A stretch of 64,000 bases of DNA from Syntrophotalea acetylenivorans. GTDB lineage: Bacteria; Desulfobacterota; Desulfuromonadia; Desulfuromonadales; Syntrophotaleaceae. The stretch spans positions 1,116,001-1,180,000 of the forward strand of contig NZ_CP015519.1 of the NCBI RefSeq assembly GCF_001887775.1, given 5' to 3'. The notes beneath the pieces are model-generated. The model was given only the letters and a program-made list of their open reading frames with translations. It did not search any database and had not been told where the DNA came from. The position numbers and the translations under genes were made by a program. Each line of letters begins with the position of its first letter. Positions within the stretch are counted from its first letter, which is position 1. Below, piece by piece: positions 27,517 to 63,478 of the stretch.

Positions 27517-28626
27517 ATGTTTAAATTCGATCTGCTCAACACCGATAACTCCTGCGCCGCTCGTCGCGGTCGGCTTACTACCCCCCATGGGGTTATCGAA
27601 ACACCGATCTTCATGCCCGTCGGCACCCACGGCGCGTTAAAAGCCATGACACCGGCGCAGGTTGAAGAGACCGGCGCCCAGATTATCCTCTCCAACACCT
27701 ACCATCTGCATCTCTCTCCCGGTGAAGGGCTGGTGGAGAAAGCCGGCGGCCTGCACCGCTTTATGAACTGGCAAGGACCGATCCTGACCGACAGTGGCGG
27801 TTTTCAGGTCTTTTCTCTGCCCAAAAAGCGCATTACCGAGACTGGGGTCTTTTTCCGCCACGAAAACACCGGAGAAGAGATCTTTCTCGGACCGCAAGAA
27901 GCGATGCAGATTCAAAACACCCTGGGGGCCGATATCATTATGGCCTTTGACGAATGCATCCCCTTCCCTGCCACTCACGATTACGCCTCCAAGTCGATTC
28001 GCAAAACCCTGCGCTGGGCCGAAGAATGTATCAAACATCAAGCCCGTAAGGACCAGGCTCTGTTCGGTATCGTTCAAGGGGGAATCTACGAAGACCTGCG
28101 CCAGGAATGCGCCAGGATCATGAGCGACATGGACTTTCCCGGGTATGCCGTCGGCGGCGTCAGCGTCGGCGAGGGACTGGAGTTGCTGAAAAAGGTCGTT
28201 GACTACACCGCCCCCATGCTGCCGGTACATAAACCACGCTATCTGATGGGAGTCGGGCTGCCCGAAGATATTCTCGAAAGTGTTGAACGAGGTATGGACA
28301 TGTTCGACTGCGTGATTCCGACCCGCTACGCCCGCAGTGCCACTCTCTTTACCAAACGGGGTAAAATTCGCCTGACCAACCGTCGCTACCGCCGGGACTT
28401 TTTTCCCGTCGACCCGTCCTGCGACTGCTACTGCTGCCGTAATTTCAGCCGCGCTTATTTACACCACCTGTTCCGCTCCAACGAAATTCTTTCTGCTACT
28501 CTGGCGGCAATTCACAATGTACACTTTTATCTGAATATGATGAGCCAGGCGCGTCAGGCCATCGAACAGAACGACTTCAAAGCTTTTAAAACCGAGTTTC
28601 TTGGTGAGTATCTCTCCGGGAATTGA
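27517..28626 (+). CDS. tgt: Queuine/preQ1 tRNA-guanine transglycosylase
   Basis: Exchanges guanine-34 for preQ1 in tRNAs with GUN anticodons. It has 369 residues from the ATG at 27517, which has GAGGA 8 bases upstream; a longer frame from 27376 is not used. The catalytic Asp is in LTDSGGFQVFSL. The nucleophile region is MFDCVIPTRYARSATLFT, and the zinc site is CDCYCC plus a downstream His. The stop overlaps the TTG of the next gene, suggesting coupling. Confidence 0.97.
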   Translation: MFKFDLLNTDNSCAARRGRLTTPHGVIETPIFMPVGTHGALKAMTPAQVEETGAQIILSNTYHLHLSPGEGLVEKAGGLHRFMNWQGPILTDSGGFQVFSLPKKRITETGVFFRHENTGEEIFLGPQEAMQIQNTLGADIIMAFDECIPFPATHDYASKSIRKTLRWAEECIKHQARKDQALFGIVQGGIYEDLRQECARIMSDMDFPGYAVGGVSVGEGLELLKKVVDYTAPMLPVHKPRYLMGVGLPEDILESVERGMDMFDCVIPTRYARSATLFTKRGKIRLTNRRYRRDFFPVDPSCDCYCCRNFSRAYLHHLFRSNEILSATLAAIHNVHFYLNMMSQARQAIEQNDFKAFKTEFLGEYLSGN

Positions 28627-29456
28627 CCAATGGTCAGGAACCGGCTAATAATGATGCCATGAACATCGAAGCGAACGATGGACAACTGACGGCCGAACTG
28701 GCCCGCCGTCTGCACCGGGCCCTGTCGGCCGATAAGGGTCAGCTTTACAACTGCCTGCAAGACCCTGCTCCCGAAGTACTAAGGGCCACGCTGCGAAACC
28801 CCGGGCTGCGGGAAGAACATCTGTTGGTGCTCTTAAAAAGGCAGGACCTGCCGGAAGATCTGCTCAAAGCTATCTATCAGCTCGACCAAACCGGGGCCAG
28901 CCGCCAACTCAAACTGGCACTGGTTAAAAATCCGGCGACACCTGCCCCCATTGTCCAAACCTTGCTGCCCCACTTGCACCTCTTCGAATTGGTCGACCTC
29001 TGTTTTCTGCCTTCGGTTACAGCCGATCAACGGTTGGCTGCCGAACGTAATATTCTACTTCGATTAGAATCCGAACCTCTGGGGAACTGCATCACCCTGG
29101 CCAGGCGCGGCACCGCTACGCTGGTCGGTGAACTGCTCATCAAGGGAGAGCCGCGCCTGATGGAGCCCTGTTTGAGCAATCCAAGACTTAAAGAGGCCGC
29201 CATCGCCCGTTTCCTGCGGGGACCGAAGGCAACGGCGGAAACCATCTCGATCATTGCCCGTCATCCTCGTTGGAAAAATCGGCCCAACCTTCGCCAATCG
29301 ATACTGCGCCACCGCCAGACGCCCCTTGTCTGGTTTACCCTGTGGTTGCCGAAATTACCGAAACGCGACTTGCGGACCTTGTTGCTGTCTCGCCAGCCAA
29401 CCTCGGCCCAACAGGCCCTGATCAATAATGAACTGAAACGACGCCAAAAAGGATGA
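28623..29456 (+). CDS. Hypothetical helical-repeat protein coupled to tgt
   Basis: A 277-residue all-helical, Leu-rich protein with degenerate repeats about 30-40 residues long (EVLRATLRNPGLREEHLLVL, LKLALVKNPATPAPIVQTLL, LMEPCLSNPRLKEAAIARFL). The pattern resembles leucine-rich variant or HEAT-like solenoids that bind partners. The start is uncertain. The TTG at 28623 overlaps the tgt stop, and an ATG at 28659 is possible. No catalytic motif, signal peptide or Cys cluster is seen. The function is unknown. Confidence 0.8.
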   Translation: MTNGQEPANNDAMNIEANDGQLTAELARRLHRALSADKGQLYNCLQDPAPEVLRATLRNPGLREEHLLVLLKRQDLPEDLLKAIYQLDQTGASRQLKLALVKNPATPAPIVQTLLPHLHLFELVDLCFLPSVTADQRLAAERNILLRLESEPLGNCITLARRGTATLVGELLIKGEPRLMEPCLSNPRLKEAAIARFLRGPKATAETISIIARHPRWKNRPNLRQSILRHRQTPLVWFTLWLPKLPKRDLRTLLLSRQPTSAQQALINNELKRRQKG

Positions 29457-29680: not shown

Positions 29681-30058
29681 ATGATAACTCTGTTGATTGT
29701 TGACGACTCACCAATTGCCCGGCAAATTCTCAAAAAATGCCTGCCCAAAGAGGATAATTATTCAATTATCGAAGCGTGCAACGGTCAAGAGGCATTGGAG
29801 AAGTTCCGCCAATTTCGTCCTGAAATCACTTTCATGGACATGACCATGCCGGTCATGGACGGCTTTCAGGCTATTGCCGAAATCAAAAAGCTCGATCCGC
29901 AAGCCATTATCATTGCCGCCACAGCCGATGTGCAAAAAAAGGCCAAGCAACGCATCGCCGACCTTGGCGCCCTGATGCATCTGCCCAAACCCGCATCTCC
30001 AAAAGCAGTCAGAGATGCCCTCGCCAAGGCCGAACAAGCCCTTCGGGAACAGATCTAA
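29681..30058 (+). CDS. Single-domain CheY-like response regulator
   Basis: A 125-residue receiver domain: acidic pair in LLIVDDSPIARQIL, phospho-acceptor Asp in ITFMDMTMPVMDG, switch Thr in IIAATAD, and conserved Lys in MHLPKPASPKAV. It is followed after 10 bases by a CheC phosphatase and then a diguanylate cyclase, so its phosphorylated state is probably read by, or cleared within, this three-gene unit. It is not next to CheA or flagellar genes. Confidence 0.93.
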   Translation: MITLLIVDDSPIARQILKKCLPKEDNYSIIEACNGQEALEKFRQFRPEITFMDMTMPVMDGFQAIAEIKKLDPQAIIIAATADVQKKAKQRIADLGALMHLPKPASPKAVRDALAKAEQALREQI

Positions 30059-30068
30059 GGAAGAGATG

Positions 30069-30704
30069 ATGGCAGACGTTCAATTTTCCAACCTGGAAAA
30101 AGATATCCTGCAGGAGCTGATGAATATCGGCTTCGGGCAGGCAGCGGCGGATCTGGCCCAAGTCATCGATCTATCCATCGAGCTCAGCGTCCCCGACATT
30201 CAACTCTTTAAAGCCTCTGATCTGCGTGATCATATTGCCAATGAGGTTGATAGCGAAACAGAGTTCAGTTTGGTCGAACAGTACTTCCTTGGCAAATTCA
30301 AGGGAATTGCGCTGCTGGTCTTTCCGGCCAAAGCCGGCAAACAACTGGTTTCCCTTTTCGGGTTGCAGGACCAGCGCAACGCACCATCGGAACGCCTTGA
30401 ACTACTGGAAAAAGAGGCCATGATAGAGGTCGGCAACATCCTCATCGGGGCCTGCGTCGGCAAAATCACCGAACTACTCAACGATGTGGTCATCTATTCA
30501 CCGCCGCGGGTCATGATTCAGGATGTGTGCAACAGCACCTTGCCGAAAAACCTGTTTGATCCCGACAGCATGGCGATTTCCATGAAAACCGTCTTCCATT
30601 TCGAGCAACAGGAAATCAGCGGTCAGCTATTTTTGATTGCCAACCACGAATCCATCTCCTGGCTTAAAACCGCCTTGCATGCATTCATGGAGCAGTACGA
30701 ATGA
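30069..30704 (+). CDS. CheC-type chemotaxis phosphatase
   Basis: About 211 residues. Two copies of the CheC active-site pattern are visible, E-x2-N in ILQELMNIGFGQAAADLA and EKEAMIEVGNILIGACVGKI. Known CheC proteins dephosphorylate CheY-P, often stimulated by CheD, which is absent here. Two adjacent ATGs (30066, 30069) follow AAGGA; the second has the better spacing. The stop overlaps the next ATG (ATGA), so translation is coupled to the cyclase. Confidence 0.9.
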   Translation: MADVQFSNLEKDILQELMNIGFGQAAADLAQVIDLSIELSVPDIQLFKASDLRDHIANEVDSETEFSLVEQYFLGKFKGIALLVFPAKAGKQLVSLFGLQDQRNAPSERLELLEKEAMIEVGNILIGACVGKITELLNDVVIYSPPRVMIQDVCNSTLPKNLFDPDSMAISMKTVFHFEQQEISGQLFLIANHESISWLKTALHAFMEQYE

Positions 30705-31600
30705 TCTTCAACCAGATTTCCGATATGATCAACATGGGTTTGGTGGTCATCGACGAGGACCTGAAGGTCCACTTCTGGAACCGCTGGATGGCCTTGCATA
30801 GTGGCATCGAGCCTGAAAAGATTGTTGGACAAAACCTGTTTGACTTCTTCCCAAACCTCAACGATCCCAAGTTTTTACGCAACTGCCGGTCGGTCTTTGC
30901 CTTTGGCAATTTTGCCTTCTTCTCCCAAAAGCTCCACCGTTACCTGTTCCCCTTTCTTCCCGCCTACAGTGATAAGGCGCGTTTCGATTATATGCAGCAG
31001 AGTTGCACCATGGGACCGATTAGGGATGAAGAGAAAAATATTCGCTACATCTTTTTATCGGTAAATGATGTGACCGAGGTGGTCAACTACGAGGAACAGT
31101 TGATCGAAATGAACCGGAAGGATGTATTGACCGGCATCTTTAACCGCCGTTTTTTTGCTCAGAAAATTCAGGAAGAGTTCGTTCGAAGCCGCCGCCACAA
31201 TCGCCCCCTCAGCCTGATTATGATCGATATCGACCATTTCAAACTGATAAACGACCGTTACGGGCACCAGGTCGGCGACGAGGCACTCAAAGCCTTTTCC
31301 ACCAGAGTGCTGAAGCGGATTCGCAAAACCGATGTATTCGCCCGTTATGGAGGTGAAGAATTTGCTTGCCTGTTGCCTGAAACCAGCGGTTCTTCGGCCC
31401 TGGTTCTGGCTCAAGACCTTTGCCGCATTATTGCCGAGGAAAACTGGATCTGTCGTGATGTGAAGTTGCAGATGACCATCAGCATCGGTATTGCTGAAAG
31501 GCAGCCGGACATGGCGGATAGCGACGCACTACTTAAAAAGGCTGACGACGCCCTGTATGAGGCAAAATCCGGCCGCAATCAAGCCATTTTGTACGACTAG
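30701..31600 (+). CDS. PAS-GGDEF diguanylate cyclase
   Basis: A cytoplasmic cyclase of 299 residues. Residues 1-125 form a PAS domain (MGLVVIDEDLKVHFWNRWMA). The GGDEF domain follows, with RYGGEEF at about 215-221 and the inhibitory RKTD five residues before GGEEF. It has no membrane segment. It is the third gene of a unit with a receiver and a CheC phosphatase. The natural reading is that the receiver regulates the cyclase while CheC resets it; this is inference. Confidence 0.92.
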   Translation: MIFNQISDMINMGLVVIDEDLKVHFWNRWMALHSGIEPEKIVGQNLFDFFPNLNDPKFLRNCRSVFAFGNFAFFSQKLHRYLFPFLPAYSDKARFDYMQQSCTMGPIRDEEKNIRYIFLSVNDVTEVVNYEEQLIEMNRKDVLTGIFNRRFFAQKIQEEFVRSRRHNRPLSLIMIDIDHFKLINDRYGHQVGDEALKAFSTRVLKRIRKTDVFARYGGEEFACLLPETSGSSALVLAQDLCRIIAEENWICRDVKLQMTISIGIAERQPDMADSDALLKKADDALYEAKSGRNQAILYD

Positions 31601-33543: not shown

Positions 33544-35628
33544 ATGATCAAATTGAAATTGCGAGCTCAGATACTGTTACCGACCCTGTTGGCTGTAGTT
33601 ATCGGCATGACCGTCGCTACCCTCTTATCCTATCAGGCCTCTAAGAAAGCCCTGCATAGTAACATAAAAGACCAGATGCAGCAGACAACTGTAGCACTAA
33701 GCAAACAAATCGACAACTGGGTCGCCGACCTTGCAAGTGATATTAAATCTCTGGCCGGCCAGAACGCGATGCGCGCCTCCCTTGAGCAAACCGATGAAAC
33801 AACCAAGACGGCCAACCATATTCTTCAGGAAATGGCTAAAGAATACGGTAATTATGAATTACTGGCTATTGCTGGTCAGGATGGAACAATCGTCGCCGCC
33901 TCAGAGCAACGCTACGTTGGCGAGCTGAAAATCGCGGATCGTGGTTATTTTCGAGCAGCCCTCGGCGGCGTAGCCACAATATCTGAAGCAATTAAAAGTA
34001 AGGTAAGTGGCGATCCGGCCTTCGTCATCGCAATCCCCGTTGAACTTAACGGCCAAATCCAAGGGGTCTGTATCGGTGTCGTCAACCTGCCCCATTTCGC
34101 AAATGCGTTTATCAAACAGGTAAAGGTGGGTAACAAAGGTTATGCGTATCTTATAGACAGCAAAGGACGCTTCCTCTCTCACCCCAAGGCAGAGCTTATC
34201 CTGGACCGTTCCCTCAGTGAATTCGACTGGGGCAAAGAGGTCTTGAATGAAAAACAGGGGTTCAAACAATACCCCTGGGAGGGCAAGGAGAAAATTGTAG
34301 CCTTTGAATCGGTTGATAAAACAGGTTGGATTATTGCCGTCGGCGCTGAACTGGATGACATCTTCTCCTCTGTAACCAACATCCGCAACACAAGTCTGTT
34401 AGTTGCCCTACTGACTTTGGTGGCGGTAGGCACAGTCGTTTTCTTTATTGCACGCCGAATTGTTGGCGCTATCCAAGCCGGGGTCAAATTCGCCGAAACC
34501 ATCAAATTGGGCGATACCAGTCAGCGCATGGAATTACAACGCGAGGACGAAATCGGCCAACTGGCCGAGTCACTCAACCAGATGGCAGAAGGACTGGCTG
34601 CGAATGCAGAACTGGCACAGGAAATAGCTGCCGGCAACCTCAATGTCGAAGTCAAGCTGGCTTCGGAGCGGGATCAGTTCGGAAAGGCATTCCAAAAAAT
34701 GGTCGCCCAGCTCAATGAAGTATTGGGTCATATCCAGGTATCCGGAGAGCAGATCGCGAGCGGCTCCGTTCAAGTGTCGGACGCTAGCCAGAGTCTCTCC
34801 CAAGGAGCGACCGAATCCGCCGCTTCTCTGGAAGAAATCAGCGCATCTATGACTGAAATGAGTTCCCAGACAACTCTCAACGCCGACAACGCCAAACAGG
34901 CAGACCAACTCGCCAACCAAGCTCGCGACGCGGGCGAACAAGGTAATAAGCAGATGGCAGAGATGGTGAATGCAATGACGGAAATCAACGAATCGAGCCA
35001 GAGCATCTCTAAGATCATTCGGGTTATCGATGAAATTGCATTTCAAACTAACCTGTTGGCTCTCAACGCTGCCGTGGAAGCAGCACGAGCTGGTCAGCAT
35101 GGAAAAGGCTTTGCCGTTGTTGCAGAGGAAGTCCGAAATCTGGCCGCCCGCAGCGCCAAAGCAGCCAGGGAAACCGCAGAACTCATCGAGGGTTCGGTGG
35201 CTAAAGCTGAAAATGGTACCCAGATCGCCCATGGCACAGCCAGCGCACTGGAAGAAATTGTGGGCAGCGTAGCCAAGGTCTCCGATCTGATCGGTGAAAT
35301 TTCCGCGGCCTCCAGCGAACAAGCCGAAGGCATTTCCCAAGTCACCCAGGCCCTTGGCCAGATAGACCAGGTAACCCAGACCAACACTGCCAACGCTGAA
35401 GAGAGTGCTGCGGCAGCAGAGGAATTGGCCAGCCAGGCCGACATCCTGAAACAAATGCTAGGCCGTTTCGCCCTGGCATCAGGTGCTGTTTCAAGGGGTG
35501 TAAGCCGCTCAGACGCCGCCCTCCCTGCTCCCTCTAAGCAATTGGACGTAAAATCGGTTGGGATCAGACCCAAACAACTTCCAGAAACCATGATCGCTCT
35601 TGACGACGCTGAATTCGGTCGGTATTAA
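33544..35628 (+). CDS. Methyl-accepting chemotaxis protein with Cache-type sensor
   Basis: A 694-residue chemoreceptor. Membrane segments near residues 10-30 and 280-300 enclose a periplasmic Cache-like domain ([40 protein letters not shown]). HAMP follows (about 300-355, ending QLAESLNQM). The cytoplasmic signalling helix has its hairpin tip [20 protein letters not shown] near 497-516. The C-terminus ends DDAEFGRY without the NWETF-type CheR tether. AGGAGAG precedes the ATG. A strong terminator follows. The ligand is unknown. Confidence 0.95.
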
Positions 35629-35729: not shown

Positions 35730-37301
35730 TCAGACTTCGACAATTTGAATTCGGTTACGCCCGGCCCGTTTCGCCTCATAAATCGCCTTGTCAGCTGCCC
35801 CAAGCATGGTCATTTTATCGACCTGAGGGTTCTTACCCTTAAAGGTAGCCCCCCCCACGCTGATAGTCACCTGCAACTGGACCTGATCAATGGGAATGAA
35901 CATATCCTCAATACCAAGGCGAATTCTCTCGGCAAAAACCTCAAGACCCTCCCTGCCTGTCTCCGGCATAATGACGGCGAATTCATCACCGCCGTAACGG
36001 ACAACGATATCGGAGCTACGCATAATCTGCACTATCTGCTCAGCCACCCGACGCAGTACCGCATCGCCGGCCAGATGGCCGAAATTATCGTTGGTCTCCT
36101 TGAAATGATCTATATCGAAAAACAACAGTGACAGATTATGCTCATAACGTTTGGTTCGTTCTAACTCCTTATCCATTTCTTCTTGAAAGTAGCGATTATT
36201 GAAAAGACCTGTTAAATCATCGCGATAAGCCAATTCGCGGTATTTTTTGTTCGCGTCGATCAGCTTGCCGACATATTTACTTGACTCCTCTTTCGCCTGT
36301 TTCAGATCCATGACCAGCTGTTCGTAGCTGCAATTGAGCTTGCCAAGTTCCTGATTGGCCTCCTGCAACATCTCTGAAAGGGGCCTGATCTCGCTGCAAG
36401 AAACATCAAAAAGGCTTAATACTTCATTGGAACGAGTGGCAACCGCATCGAGCAGCTCTTTGATCTCCTTTTCAGATAAGCCGTAATCTTCGCTAAGGGT
36501 CTGGTAAACACCGGCTATAGTGGTTCTGCCCTGGCTGCTGTGGTAGACAGCGGAAATCTTGCTGGCCAGGCTCAGAATACCGACGGCAACCCGGTGACGC
36601 TCCGGAGCACAAGACTCTCGATGATGATAAAACAACGGAAGGTAGATACTTTCCGGCAAACCCCACCCTTGGAGCAATGAACCGCCCAATTCGGCATGAC
36701 ACAAGCCCATGAGCTGCCGCTCGACAATATGTCCAGGCGCCTCGCTGCTATTCTTCAGCGCCATGACTTCCATATAGGAATCGGTATAATAGTGAAAAAA
36801 CACCAGGACACCAATGTCCTGAAGCAGACCACTAACGAAAATATCGTCACTATCATAATCTGCTAACGGAGCCAGCATCTTGGCGGCTACCGCCGCCGAA
36901 ACAGACCGTTTCCAGAAATATTCGAAATCGAAAAAACTTGTTGAATCACCGTGTAATTTTTGAACGATGATGAAGGACAAGGCGATGTTCTTTAAAGAAT
37001 TGATGCCGAGGATCGATAAGGCGGTTTCGATACTCTTCACCCGGCCGCCGAAGCCGTACATGGGGGAATTAGTGACCTTCAGCAGTTTGGCGGTTAGGGA
37101 GGGGTCGGCGGAAATAATCTTGCCCAACTCGGCAAAACAACTGTCATCATTCTGCACCGCCTCAAGGATGTGCATTGCAATATTCGGCGGAGAAGGGAGC
37201 TCTATCTTCTGCTGGATCAGCGACTGCACCTCTCTAATTGTCCGCACCTTTTGACTGGCATCGTCTGCCATGCCGTCGGCTGAACTATATTGTTCTGGCA
37301 T
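35730..37301 (-). CDS. HDOD-GGDEF signalling protein
   Basis: A 523-residue cytoplasmic fusion. Residues 20-230 are an HDOD domain (LPSPPNIAMHILEAVQND, SADPSLTAKLLKVTNSPMYG, VSGLLQDIGVLVFFHYY). HDOD is a phosphodiesterase-like fold usually without catalytic residues. A helical linker (about 290-350) leads to a GGDEF domain with RYGGDEF near 435-441 and the inhibitory RSSD five residues before it. It is probably an active diguanylate cyclase controlled by the HDOD part. Transcribed alone. Confidence 0.92.
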   Translation of the reverse strand: MPEQYSSADGMADDASQKVRTIREVQSLIQQKIELPSPPNIAMHILEAVQNDDSCFAELGKIISADPSLTAKLLKVTNSPMYGFGGRVKSIETALSILGINSLKNIALSFIIVQKLHGDSTSFFDFEYFWKRSVSAAVAAKMLAPLADYDSDDIFVSGLLQDIGVLVFFHYYTDSYMEVMALKNSSEAPGHIVERQLMGLCHAELGGSLLQGWGLPESIYLPLFYHHRESCAPERHRVAVGILSLASKISAVYHSSQGRTTIAGVYQTLSEDYGLSEKEIKELLDAVATRSNEVLSLFDVSCSEIRPLSEMLQEANQELGKLNCSYEQLVMDLKQAKEESSKYVGKLIDANKKYRELAYRDDLTGLFNNRYFQEEMDKELERTKRYEHNLSLLFFDIDHFKETNDNFGHLAGDAVLRRVAEQIVQIMRSSDIVVRYGGDEFAVIMPETGREGLEVFAERIRLGIEDMFIPIDQVQLQVTISVGGATFKGKNPQVDKMTMLGAADKAIYEAKRAGRNRIQIVEV

Positions 37302-61220: not shown

Positions 61221-62405
61221 TCAAACAGCAATACTCTGAGCCGCCTTGAAGTGGGCTTCAACTTTCTCAAGCACCTCTTCTTCACTCGCCGGGGTCACCA
61301 AAATATCACAGACCCCATACTTCACCGCCTTCAATACCTTGCTGCGAGTCCATTGACTGCCGGTTGCCATCAGGGGAACCGATTCGCCAAAGGCCGTGCG
61401 CACCTTAATCGCAACGGAAAAGCTCTGATCACCGATCTCGTCCATGGCCAAAACCAGCCCCTTGACCCTTCCGTTTAGGGACCTTGATAGATCATTGAAA
61501 TTTTCTTTGCGGTCGACCAGAGCTGAATTATAGCCATGATCATTGATCATGGAGTTAATCTCCTGGCCATAACTGCCATCGATGGCGACAACCAAAATAA
61601 CCGGTTCTGCCCCTTCAAGGTTCGGCTCCTCATCCATCGGGATCGGTTGTCCGGCCTGAACCGGTTTAGCTTCAGGAGTCGTCTCTACAGCGATGCCAGC
61701 CGAAGAAGAACTGTCCGGCGAAAGATCACCCAACAAAGCCGCAGCTTCTTCCGGGTTCACTAAACGGCCGGGGGCAGACTCGGAGACAGCAGGAGTTTCT
61801 TCACTGGCCTCTGCTTCCAAGTCCGGGGTCTCAGGAACCGATATTCCGAGCATCGCCGCCGGAAAGATCATTAACAGTTCATCGAGTTCCTGACCATCGA
61901 GAGTAACCGGATAGGCAGCCTTCAGATAGAGTCCCGGGGGAAAGGGTTCCGGCGAATCCATCTTGATTTTTGATGGCACGATAGATTCCAAGCCATCCAT
62001 CTTGAAGTGGAGCTTTTCCGGATAGAGCTCATCAAAGGCCGAGCACAACTCGCCGGAGACTATATTGGCAATTTCACCGAAGGAATCGGCTTCTTCTTCG
62101 CCAAAAATTTCCTTTTTGACCCGCTCCTCAAGTTCAGCCGGTGGCAGCATAATAAGGGTGCCACCCAGTTGAACCGCATCCTTGAGCCGGCAAAAAATAA
62201 AAATATCGCCCTCATGGTCACCACTGACGATCATGCGCACCATGACTTGCTTTTTACGAGTCTTGGCGAAAAATTCCTTTTTGGTCGTCAGGATAGTCGA
62301 TGGCGCAGGCAAAGTCAGTTCACAACCGAGCATGCCGCCAAGCCCCATTGCGATTTTGCTGCCTACGTCCTCGAGGACATCTGTAATGATCGGATCTATT
62401 TCCAT
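61221..62405 (-). CDS. CheC/FliY-like phosphatase domain with degenerate receiver
   Basis: A 394-residue fusion. The N-terminal 200 residues are CheC/FliY-like, with one active-site pattern in EADSFGEIANIVSGELCSAF. An acidic, Pro/Ser-rich linker (about 205-265) follows. The C-terminal 120 residues have receiver-like alternation (VILVVAIDGSYGQEINSM, VPLMATGSQW). The usual Lys is Thr in DILVTPAS and the phospho-acceptor position is not clearly Asp. It may dephosphorylate the neighbouring CheY. It is last in the leftward che-like cluster. Confidence 0.78.
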   Translation of the reverse strand: MEIDPIITDVLEDVGSKIAMGLGGMLGCELTLPAPSTILTTKKEFFAKTRKKQVMVRMIVSGDHEGDIFIFCRLKDAVQLGGTLIMLPPAELEERVKKEIFGEEEADSFGEIANIVSGELCSAFDELYPEKLHFKMDGLESIVPSKIKMDSPEPFPPGLYLKAAYPVTLDGQELDELLMIFPAAMLGISVPETPDLEAEASEETPAVSESAPGRLVNPEEAAALLGDLSPDSSSSAGIAVETTPEAKPVQAGQPIPMDEEPNLEGAEPVILVVAIDGSYGQEINSMINDHGYNSALVDRKENFNDLSRSLNGRVKGLVLAMDEIGDQSFSVAIKVRTAFGESVPLMATGSQWTRSKVLKAVKYGVCDILVTPASEEEVLEKVEAHFKAAQSIAV

Positions 62406-62636: not shown

Positions 62637-63092
62637 TTATTTCTGCAAATGGAACTCCACCAAAAAGCTTCCTCCCTCAATCGAAAAGGGCATACATGTC
62701 CCCTCGCTGTCGGTGAGGCAATCGATTTCATACTCTGCACCGCACACTACCGAAGGAATCGACAGCTTAAATTCCTGACCCTGTTCCGTCAAGTCGGACT
62801 TGATACTACCGGCCACCATATTGGCCAACTCGCCAATGGCATCTTTCACATCATCGTCCACTTCCGTTACTTCCATCATTAAGAAACTACTGGTAATGAC
62901 CAGCGCCGTAGGCTCAGGGAGGTGGATAGCCAGCATCCCCTTGCTGGCGCCCGCCATGCCGACAATGGCGGTAACAGAGTTTTCAAAATAATTGGATCTT
63001 TCGGTCAATGCCTCGCCAGGACTGGCTTCCATCATCAACATGGTCTGGAAGATTTCCTGGGTTGCCTGGCTAATACTGTTGCTCAAGTCCAC
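62637..63092 (-). CDS. cheX: CheX-type chemotaxis phosphatase
   Basis: A 151-residue CheX domain. The active-site helix is DDVKDAIGELANMVAGSIKS, with the E-x2-N pair used to attack CheY-P. It lies 14 bases after the cheY-like gene, so it probably clears that receiver. It shares the cluster with a second CheX-like gene and a CheC-like fusion. Confidence 0.9.
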   Translation of the reverse strand: MDLSNSISQATQEIFQTMLMMEASPGEALTERSNYFENSVTAIVGMAGASKGMLAIHLPEPTALVITSSFLMMEVTEVDDDVKDAIGELANMVAGSIKSDLTEQGQEFKLSIPSVVCGAEYEIDCLTDSEGTCMPFSIEGGSFLVEFHLQK

Positions 63093-63106: not shown

Positions 63107-63478
63107 TCACAAAAGGCTCCCCAGGGTCTCCTGAATCTGGTCCGGGGTAAAAGGCTTTTTGATGCTACCGGCAGCGCCAAGGCTCCTGGCTTCATCAAGG
63201 ATATCCGCACCAGCTTCGGTGGTAATCATCACAACAGGAATGTCCTTGATCTTGTCATCGGTCTGCTTCTGCCGCAAAAACTCGATCCCGTCCATAACCG
63301 GCATATTGATGTCGCTGAGAATAATATCAACGGTTTCGCCAGCCAGAACATCAAGTGCAGCCTGCCCATCGCCGGCCTCCAGAATGGCATCGAAGTCGAG
63401 TCCAGCCTGCCGCAGCGAGCGAGTGACGATTTTTCTCATAGTGTTAGAATCATCAATGATAAGAACTTTTTTGCCCAT
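63107..63478 (-). CDS. CheY-like response regulator
   Basis: A 123-residue single receiver domain: VLIIDDSNTMRKIV, phospho-acceptor in ILSDINMPVMDGIEFL, switch Thr in VVMITTEAG, and Lys in GSIKKPFTPDQI. All catalytic positions are intact. It is flanked by CheX-type genes on the same strand. It probably carries a phosphoryl signal to a motor or another output. Confidence 0.95.
   Translation of the reverse strand: MGKKVLIIDDSNTMRKIVTRSLRQAGLDFDAILEAGDGQAALDVLAGETVDIILSDINMPVMDGIEFLRQKQTDDKIKDIPVVMITTEAGADILDEARSLGAAGSIKKPFTPDQIQETLGSLL

Follow-up and report, generated by a model that had tools for sequence, protein, structure and literature searches.

In the Wsp system of Pseudomonas, the CheA-type kinase WspE acts on WspR, a response regulator of REC-GGDEF architecture, and systems built on CheC, CheD and CheY are known from Thermotoga maritima and Bacillus subtilis. 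In the Dif system of Myxococcus xanthus, DifE is the kinase, DifD a CheY homologue and DifG a CheC homologue, and the available excerpts of the report state that DifG speeds the dephosphorylation of DifD-P and that DifD is likely a phosphate sink (PMC4671073). For Pseudomonas syringae, the available text of a further report gives one response regulator with a CheC-like output per genome (PMC2222644). A full-text search of the open literature, covering titles and the starts of abstracts and with most subscription papers outside it, returned no description of a REC-CheC-PAS module, and none appears in the available parts of PMC2577667, PMC8235581, PMC2700814 (Geobacter, Desulfuromonas), PMC8789113 and PMC2222644. 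In its available part, PMC8235581 cites Muff and Ordal 2008 on CheC phosphatases beyond chemotaxis, which might mention related arrangements.

A receiver, CheC and PAS-GGDEF operon and its products

The window analyzed here is a 64,000-nucleotide stretch of the Syntrophotalea acetylenivorans genome (3.22 Mb, one contig). Three same-strand genes, encoding a receiver, a CheC-family protein and a PAS_4-GGDEF protein, fill positions 29681-31600. These and the other features discussed below are:

29681..30058, forward strand: REC, single-domain receiver, ATG to TAA, 125 aa (Pfam PF00072 Response_reg, E=2.6e-25)
29921..29935, forward strand: T-A-D-V-Q motif, residues 81-85 of the receiver, end of beta4; signature of CheC-linked receivers
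30066..30704, forward strand: CheC-family protein, predicted CheY-P phosphatase, ATG to TGA, 212 aa (PF04509, E=2e-13)
30701..31600, forward strand: PAS_4-GGDEF protein, predicted diguanylate cyclase, 299 aa (GGDEF, E=6.9e-45; PAS_4, E=1.6e-8)
31322..31363, forward strand: cyclase motifs, I-site RxxD (residues 208-211) and active-site GGEEF (217-221)
33544..35628, forward strand: MCP, dCache_1-HAMP-MCPsignal (Pfam), 1.9 kb downstream of the operon
62637..63092, reverse strand: CheX (Pfam CheX, E=6.5e-27), che cluster at the right end of the window
63107..63478, reverse strand: CheY-like receiver of the che cluster (REC profile match)

The tight spacing and ATGA overlap reported in an earlier note on this DNA hold at exact coordinates, with a 7-nt gap between the TAA of the receiver gene and the ATG of CheC and a 4-nt overlap between CheC and the PAS-GGDEF gene. 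Rfam returned zero matches over the whole window at gathering thresholds, so that control of the operon by a known RNA element was rejected, and we claim no promoter or terminator, the counts being 2 promoter-like sites against 2.1 in shuffled sequences and 5 terminator-like sites against 3.7 (sd 2.0). Upstream, following a tRNA-guanine transglycosylase gene, lies a gene for a 277-aa protein (28623-29456) that matches nothing in Pfam or NCBIfam at E 0.001. The MCP encoded downstream is a possible partner of the operon, and the sister locus L036 likewise has an MCP gene 1.0 kb downstream. An HDOD-GGDEF protein is encoded close to the operon (35730-37301), and at the loci L037, L040 and L041 an opposite-strand GGDEF gene lies downstream.

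Residue conservation was examined for all three products. In the receiver, D8/D9, D53 and K103 are invariant across 34 aligned rows and T81 is present in the window sequence; the window protein thus carries the acidic pair, phospho-Asp, T/S and Lys of a phosphorylatable single-domain receiver, with D53 as the predicted phospho-acceptor. The nearest solved structures are the CheY proteins 6er7 and 1tmy, which likewise carry Gln at T+4.

The CheC protein scores 50.5 bits against PF04509 (cut-off 22) and matches CheC (1xkr) by profile at E=1.4e-21. Its predicted structure (pLDDT 81.5) has the CheC fold, the top PDB matches being T. maritima FliY, CheC and CheD-bound CheC (Foldseek matches 4hyn, 1xkr and 2f9z, E 1e-15 to 1.4e-14). 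Site 1 comprises D13/E17/N20 (30102-30125) and site 2 E121/N124 (30426-30437), and both ExxN motifs, which we take to be the active-site motif of CheC phosphatases, are kept, E17/N20 and E121/N124 being invariant in 58 sequences. A protein search found no second copy of the cassette CheC in the genome; the other PF04509 match, which just reaches the cut-off, comes from the che-cluster CheX.

The GGDEF domain of the third protein scores 153 bits (PF00990), and R208, D211, G217, G218, E220 and F221 are invariant in 60 sequences. The protein also has the N and D of FKxxND and GHxxGD; taking GGEEF, RxxD, FKxxND and GHxxGD as the canonical diguanylate cyclase motifs, we predict from its sequence that it is a diguanylate cyclase. 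In the predicted structure (pLDDT 91.2, pTM 0.61), the GGDEF part matches 3ign, WspR and PleD. A hybrid cyclase making cGAMP was considered and rejected, as the window protein has the canonical Asp at what we presume to be the specificity residue of that class. The structure likewise gave no ligand class for the PAS domain, the top 50 Foldseek matches all being proteins of GGDEF or PAS-GGDEF type.

Conservation and output domains of the cassette

To determine how widely this arrangement is kept, we mapped loci around CheC matches in related genomes. A CheC match of any kind was found in 69 of 118 relatives, and 30 loci from this search were inspected, most of the CheC matches at about 30% identity lying outside these 30. 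REC, CheC and PAS-GGDEF occur together in L001 (the window) to L018, and the REC-CheC-PAS triad recurs at about 30% identity in L019-L022 and L026. It is absent from the other 7 of the 30 (L023-L025 and L027-L030), where CheC matches of about 30% each lie behind a kinase gene, identified by Pfam as CheA in L023 and L025. A scan of named genomes then found 407 relatives, of which the best 80 were used. Once the window and duplicates (L001-L009, L011, L016, L017) and the seven loci without the triad had been dropped, 91 distinct loci were counted, which are related by descent, so that the counts are not of independent events.

REC adjoins CheC in 87 of the 91 loci by script, and in L047 as seen on its map; the remaining exceptions are L075, at a contig edge, and L111 and L112, in which a family CheC stands without a neighboring receiver or PAS gene. 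PAS-GGDEF lies beside REC and CheC in 68 of the 91 loci (downstream in 62, upstream in 6), a PAS-histidine kinase (PAS-HK) in 5 and a PAS-only protein in 4, with no PAS protein found in 14; contig ends are close by at L059, L075 and L081. The cassette spans the Desulfuromonadales, other Deltaproteobacteria, Nitrospirae and anammox MAGs. The three-gene order, whose conservation the earlier note had named as a check on its proposed circuit, is thus kept widely, with PAS-GGDEF moved upstream in 6/91 loci and no PAS gene in 14/91. The linkage of three genes in so many genomes makes chance adjacency unlikely, and its survival of reordering argues for function: receiver, CheC and PAS protein form a real, conserved signaling cassette.

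The PAS domain is common to the third genes, but the output attached to it varies among GGDEF, histidine kinase, HD-GYP and PAS alone. Pfam identifies PAS-HisKA-HATPase proteins in L019, L020, L022, L065 and L069, and the third gene is again a PAS-HK in L199 and L203; PAS-only proteins with a tail are found in L079, L095, L100 and L104, and L171, L177 and L178 were mapped as PAS only. The PAS domains of the GGDEF, HK and PAS-only forms can be aligned, and G13, W26, N27, P51, L53, G69 and D123-V124-T125 do not vary over 23 rows. Position 79 is His in all 60 GGDEF forms compared, but Tyr in four aligned PAS-only forms. In a quickly built CheC tree (117 rows), approximate because of its long branches and including five pairs of identical rows that are probably the same genomes, the third-gene label changes at least 12 times, and GGDEF is the commonest form (84/117 rows). 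Direct fusion of the cassette REC or CheC to the PAS protein was not seen among the mapped loci. The c-di-GMP output predicted in the earlier note is therefore the most frequent one but is not fixed for the cassette at large, some third genes encoding a kinase, an HD-GYP protein or a PAS domain with no known output attached.

Departures from the triad were also recorded. At L198, L202 and L205, REC-CheC with TADIQ is followed by a 446-460-aa gene lacking all the signaling profiles used, with no PAS gene. PAS-GGDEF fragments lie upstream of an intact REC-CheC beside cheA at L074:2877-3395 and L080:3092-3310, which suggests a decaying cyclase.

Receiver motif and chemosensory neighbors

Alignment of the cassette receivers revealed a short motif at the end of beta4, [ST][AS][DN][IV]Q, that is present in 87 of 87 family RECs and, among the 59 receivers examined of the 66 receiver matches in the window genome, in the cassette receiver alone; the pattern was defined after the alignment had been seen. 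A REC-only search of 395 genomes of the phylum was then mapped for its best 30 loci, which include the window and five loci probably from genomes already among the 91. CheC adjoins REC in all 25 motif-bearing loci of this set. The motif is lacking in L181, L183, L195, L196 and L197; L195 has TADTQ in its place and has CheC, no CheC was found nearby in L181, L196 and L197, and L183, which runs off the contig edge, was left out of the contrast. For the association of motif and CheC without L183, Fisher p is 0.001 (ignoring relatedness and with few CheC-less receivers), and p is 0.07 once L196 and L197, which carry a different CheY type (SALGQ), are removed as well. With L183 unjudgeable and these two of another type, the sharp contrast comes from L181 alone. 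Its receiver (L208:7178-7558) matches the family at E of about 1e-44 with CSSETN replacing the motif, and no CheC occurs in 9.1 kb, on a stretch that carries MCP, CheR and CheB, the last about 2 kb off. We infer that the motif may contact CheC.

Chemosensory genes lie at varying distances from the cassette. In the window genome, the single CheA (PF02895) is encoded about 36 kb past the end of the operon, beyond the window, in a che cluster with CheX, CheY, CheD, CheB and CheR beside flagellar genes that include the gene for FliG; the genome has one CheD, 34 kb from CheC. In the congener G002, the CheC, CheD, CheA and FliG matches fall on one contig with similar spacing. The CheA protein (855 aa, L034:7741-10308) has a cysteine-rich stretch near its N-terminus. 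Beside the che cluster, a 394-aa protein (61221-62405) with no Pfam match at E 0.001 appears by eye to be CheX/FliY-like at its N-terminus and receiver-like at its C-terminus.

Labels for CheA, CheW, CheV-like, MCP, CheR, CheB and PAS genes at the mapped loci were assigned with custom profiles, some of them checked with Pfam. Most of the 91 loci have no CheA within the fetched flanks. A divergent cheA lies beside the cassette in 9/91, mostly together with cheW, as confirmed by Pfam for L083, L084 and L091; L022 was excluded from this count because the CheA profile cross-matched its PAS-HK. The nine loci belong to Syntrophaceae, Smithella or unplaced Deltaproteobacteria and form one clade of the CheC tree. 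In two draft genomes among them, G144 (L084) and G147 (L091), the searches found no CheA besides the cassette-adjacent one, and no FliG. Several loci of this Syntrophaceae/Smithella clade keep REC, CheC and CheA with PAS-GGDEF lost or fragmentary, so that the cyclase would not be the receiver's only role there. CheV-like CheW-REC genes lie near the cassette at two further loci (L065, L069).

The closest association was found in G342, a genome of the same phylum, in which the cassette forms the last genes of a CheA-CheW-MCP-CheR-CheB cluster and a REC-CheC fusion paralogue stands at the other flank. Its contig C70 (L213, 40000-56436) encodes the REC-CheC fusion, a PAS-PAS-HD-GYP protein carrying both HD and GYP motifs, a histidine kinase, two receiver proteins and CheA, followed on the same strand by CheW, MCP, PAS-HEAT, CheR, CheB, REC, CheC and PAS-PAS-GGDEF. 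The 914-aa protein between MCP and CheR is PAS by custom profile, whereas Pfam gives HEAT repeats and no PAS. The fusion and the shared motif together link REC to CheC.

The earlier note's remark that no CheA or CheD is present is accurate inside the window, but the genome's only copies of both lie 34-36 kb downstream. The description of the operon as self-contained and outside chemotaxis loci therefore holds only in part and is not borne out as phrased, given that distance and the relatives whose cassettes adjoin cheA, lie near CheV-like genes or, in G342, close a che cluster.

Genome-wide searches for CheA, FliG and CheD covered 70, 66 and 67 genomes, respectively, a subset of those with the 91 loci. 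CheA (PF02895) was found in 68 of the 70, which carry the cassette or part of it, with no match in G088 (92% complete) and G141. CheD was found in 52 of the 67 and not in the other 15, some of them drafts, which speaks against CheD as an obligatory partner. Among genomes that carry all or part of the cassette, 62 of 66 have FliG, including 17 of 17 in the window's order; of the 80 genomes of that order lacking a close CheC match, 44 do (over cut-off; 47 at E 0.001); these counts are uncorrected for relatedness and the link to flagella they indicate is suggestive only. Because CheA and flagella occur widely in these groups, finding them together with the cassette is weak evidence.

Candidate mechanisms and described systems

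The reading that we favor, at about an even chance, places the operon at the output end of a CheA chemosensory pathway, as a cassette with CheC as its off-switch. D53 of the stand-alone receiver would be phosphorylated by the one CheA of the genome, which belongs to the flagellar che cluster; once phosphorylated, the receiver would act on the PAS domain of the third protein and so alter how active the attached output domain is, which at the window is the GGDEF cyclase; and CheC would strip the phosphate and end the pulse. That CheC acts on the cassette receiver is very probable, CheA is likely the kinase for the receiver, and action of the receiver on PAS is fairly likely. Adjacency to cheA, CheV-like neighbors and the G342 cluster point to CheA as the phosphate source; counting against it, CheA is not adjacent in the window genome and adjacency is limited to one clade and one genome. 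The circuit of the earlier note, in which phosphoryl signaling sets c-di-GMP output and CheC resets it, is plausible, but the cassette looks like a companion of chemosensory systems, not a unit separate from them, and its place beside or within chemotaxis-type clusters in some relatives suggests that it links chemotaxis-like sensing with further decisions of the cell.

According to the main rival, receiver and CheC would serve as a phosphate sink for CheA, as proposed for DifD and DifG, and PAS-GGDEF would merely be co-expressed and answer a signal of its own. The Myxococcus precedent, in the available excerpts (PMC4671073), and the Syntrophaceae/Smithella-type loci that still have REC-CheC next to cheA although PAS-GGDEF is lost or decayed speak for it, but a sink leaves unexplained why the same PAS family is linked on either side of REC-CheC while its outputs change, and at the window, CheY and CheC are not encoded with a CheA of their own, the kinase gene being about 36 kb away; we consider this reading unlikely. 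The PAS-HK third genes (5/91 loci, also L199 and L203), the lack of a CheA match in G088 and G141 and the many loci without CheA in the fetched flanks would fit an ordinary two-component circuit, driven by a histidine kinase elsewhere in the genome, with the chemosensory neighbors as later recruitments. Such a circuit, which we hold to be quite unlikely, sits poorly with the adjacency of cheA in one clade, the complete che cluster of G342, the CheV-like neighbors at L065 and L069 and the occurrence of the CheC-less sister REC near MCP, CheR and CheB in L208.

Because the PAS-HK variants have a kinase in the operon, the signal could also run the other way, the PAS protein being the sensor and its original kinase form phosphorylating the receiver, with GGDEF forms derived and the receiver and CheC answering other kinases. 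When the CheC tree is split at its midpoint, PAS-HK forms do fall in both halves; nevertheless, GGDEF, HD-GYP and PAS-only forms stay linked though not expected to phosphorylate the receiver, and the predominance of GGDEF on that tree likewise makes reverse flow decidedly improbable. Neutral co-location of three signaling genes, which has nothing in its favor beyond the usual prior for neighboring genes, is scarcely credible in view of a linkage conserved with reordered genes, the REC-CheC fusion and the shared motif.

Building on the output-cassette reading, we tentatively propose that REC-CheC-PAS is a plug-in, self-resetting phospho-switch that recognizes one PAS family and connects chemosensory arrays to interchangeable outputs, with TADxQ as the code that makes a receiver readable by CheC. 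Depending on the third protein, c-di-GMP would be made or broken, a second kinase started or another partner bound. If correct, this would give CheC a use outside flagellar adaptation and provide a second, modular route from chemosensory kinases to c-di-GMP, and the receivers that a CheC can reset may be recognizable by a short sequence signature. It makes two points testable, namely which receivers are served by CheC-type phosphatases and by what means a single-domain receiver acts in trans on an effector, and the GGDEF and HD-GYP arms around one CheA cluster in G342 offer a natural test case.

Compared with described systems, the cassette resembles Wsp in that a receiver and a GGDEF domain are expected to bring c-di-GMP under the control of a chemosensory kinase. 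Unlike in Wsp, the window receiver and cyclase are separate proteins, with PAS between them and CheC encoded alongside, receiver and GGDEF are likewise on separate genes in the cassettes mapped in relatives, and no CheA/CheW/MCP/CheR/CheB cluster adjoins the window cassette, whereas the G342 cassette has one. With Dif, as described in the available excerpts, it shares a CheY and CheC pair and would share a CheA-type kinase as the source and a role other than flagellar steering, but those excerpts describe no PAS-GGDEF partner for Dif (PMC4671073). The CheC fold and active-site residues, and a receiver closest to CheYs with Gln at T+4, recall the CheC/CheD/CheY systems of T. maritima and B. subtilis, from which the window CheC differs in lying away from CheD and the che cluster and in being paired with a cyclase. 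Finally, in contrast to response regulators with a CheC output, the window REC and CheC are separate genes followed by PAS-GGDEF; like them, the cassette treats receiver and CheC as one unit, as in the REC-CheC fusion of G342 beside PAS-PAS-HD-GYP.
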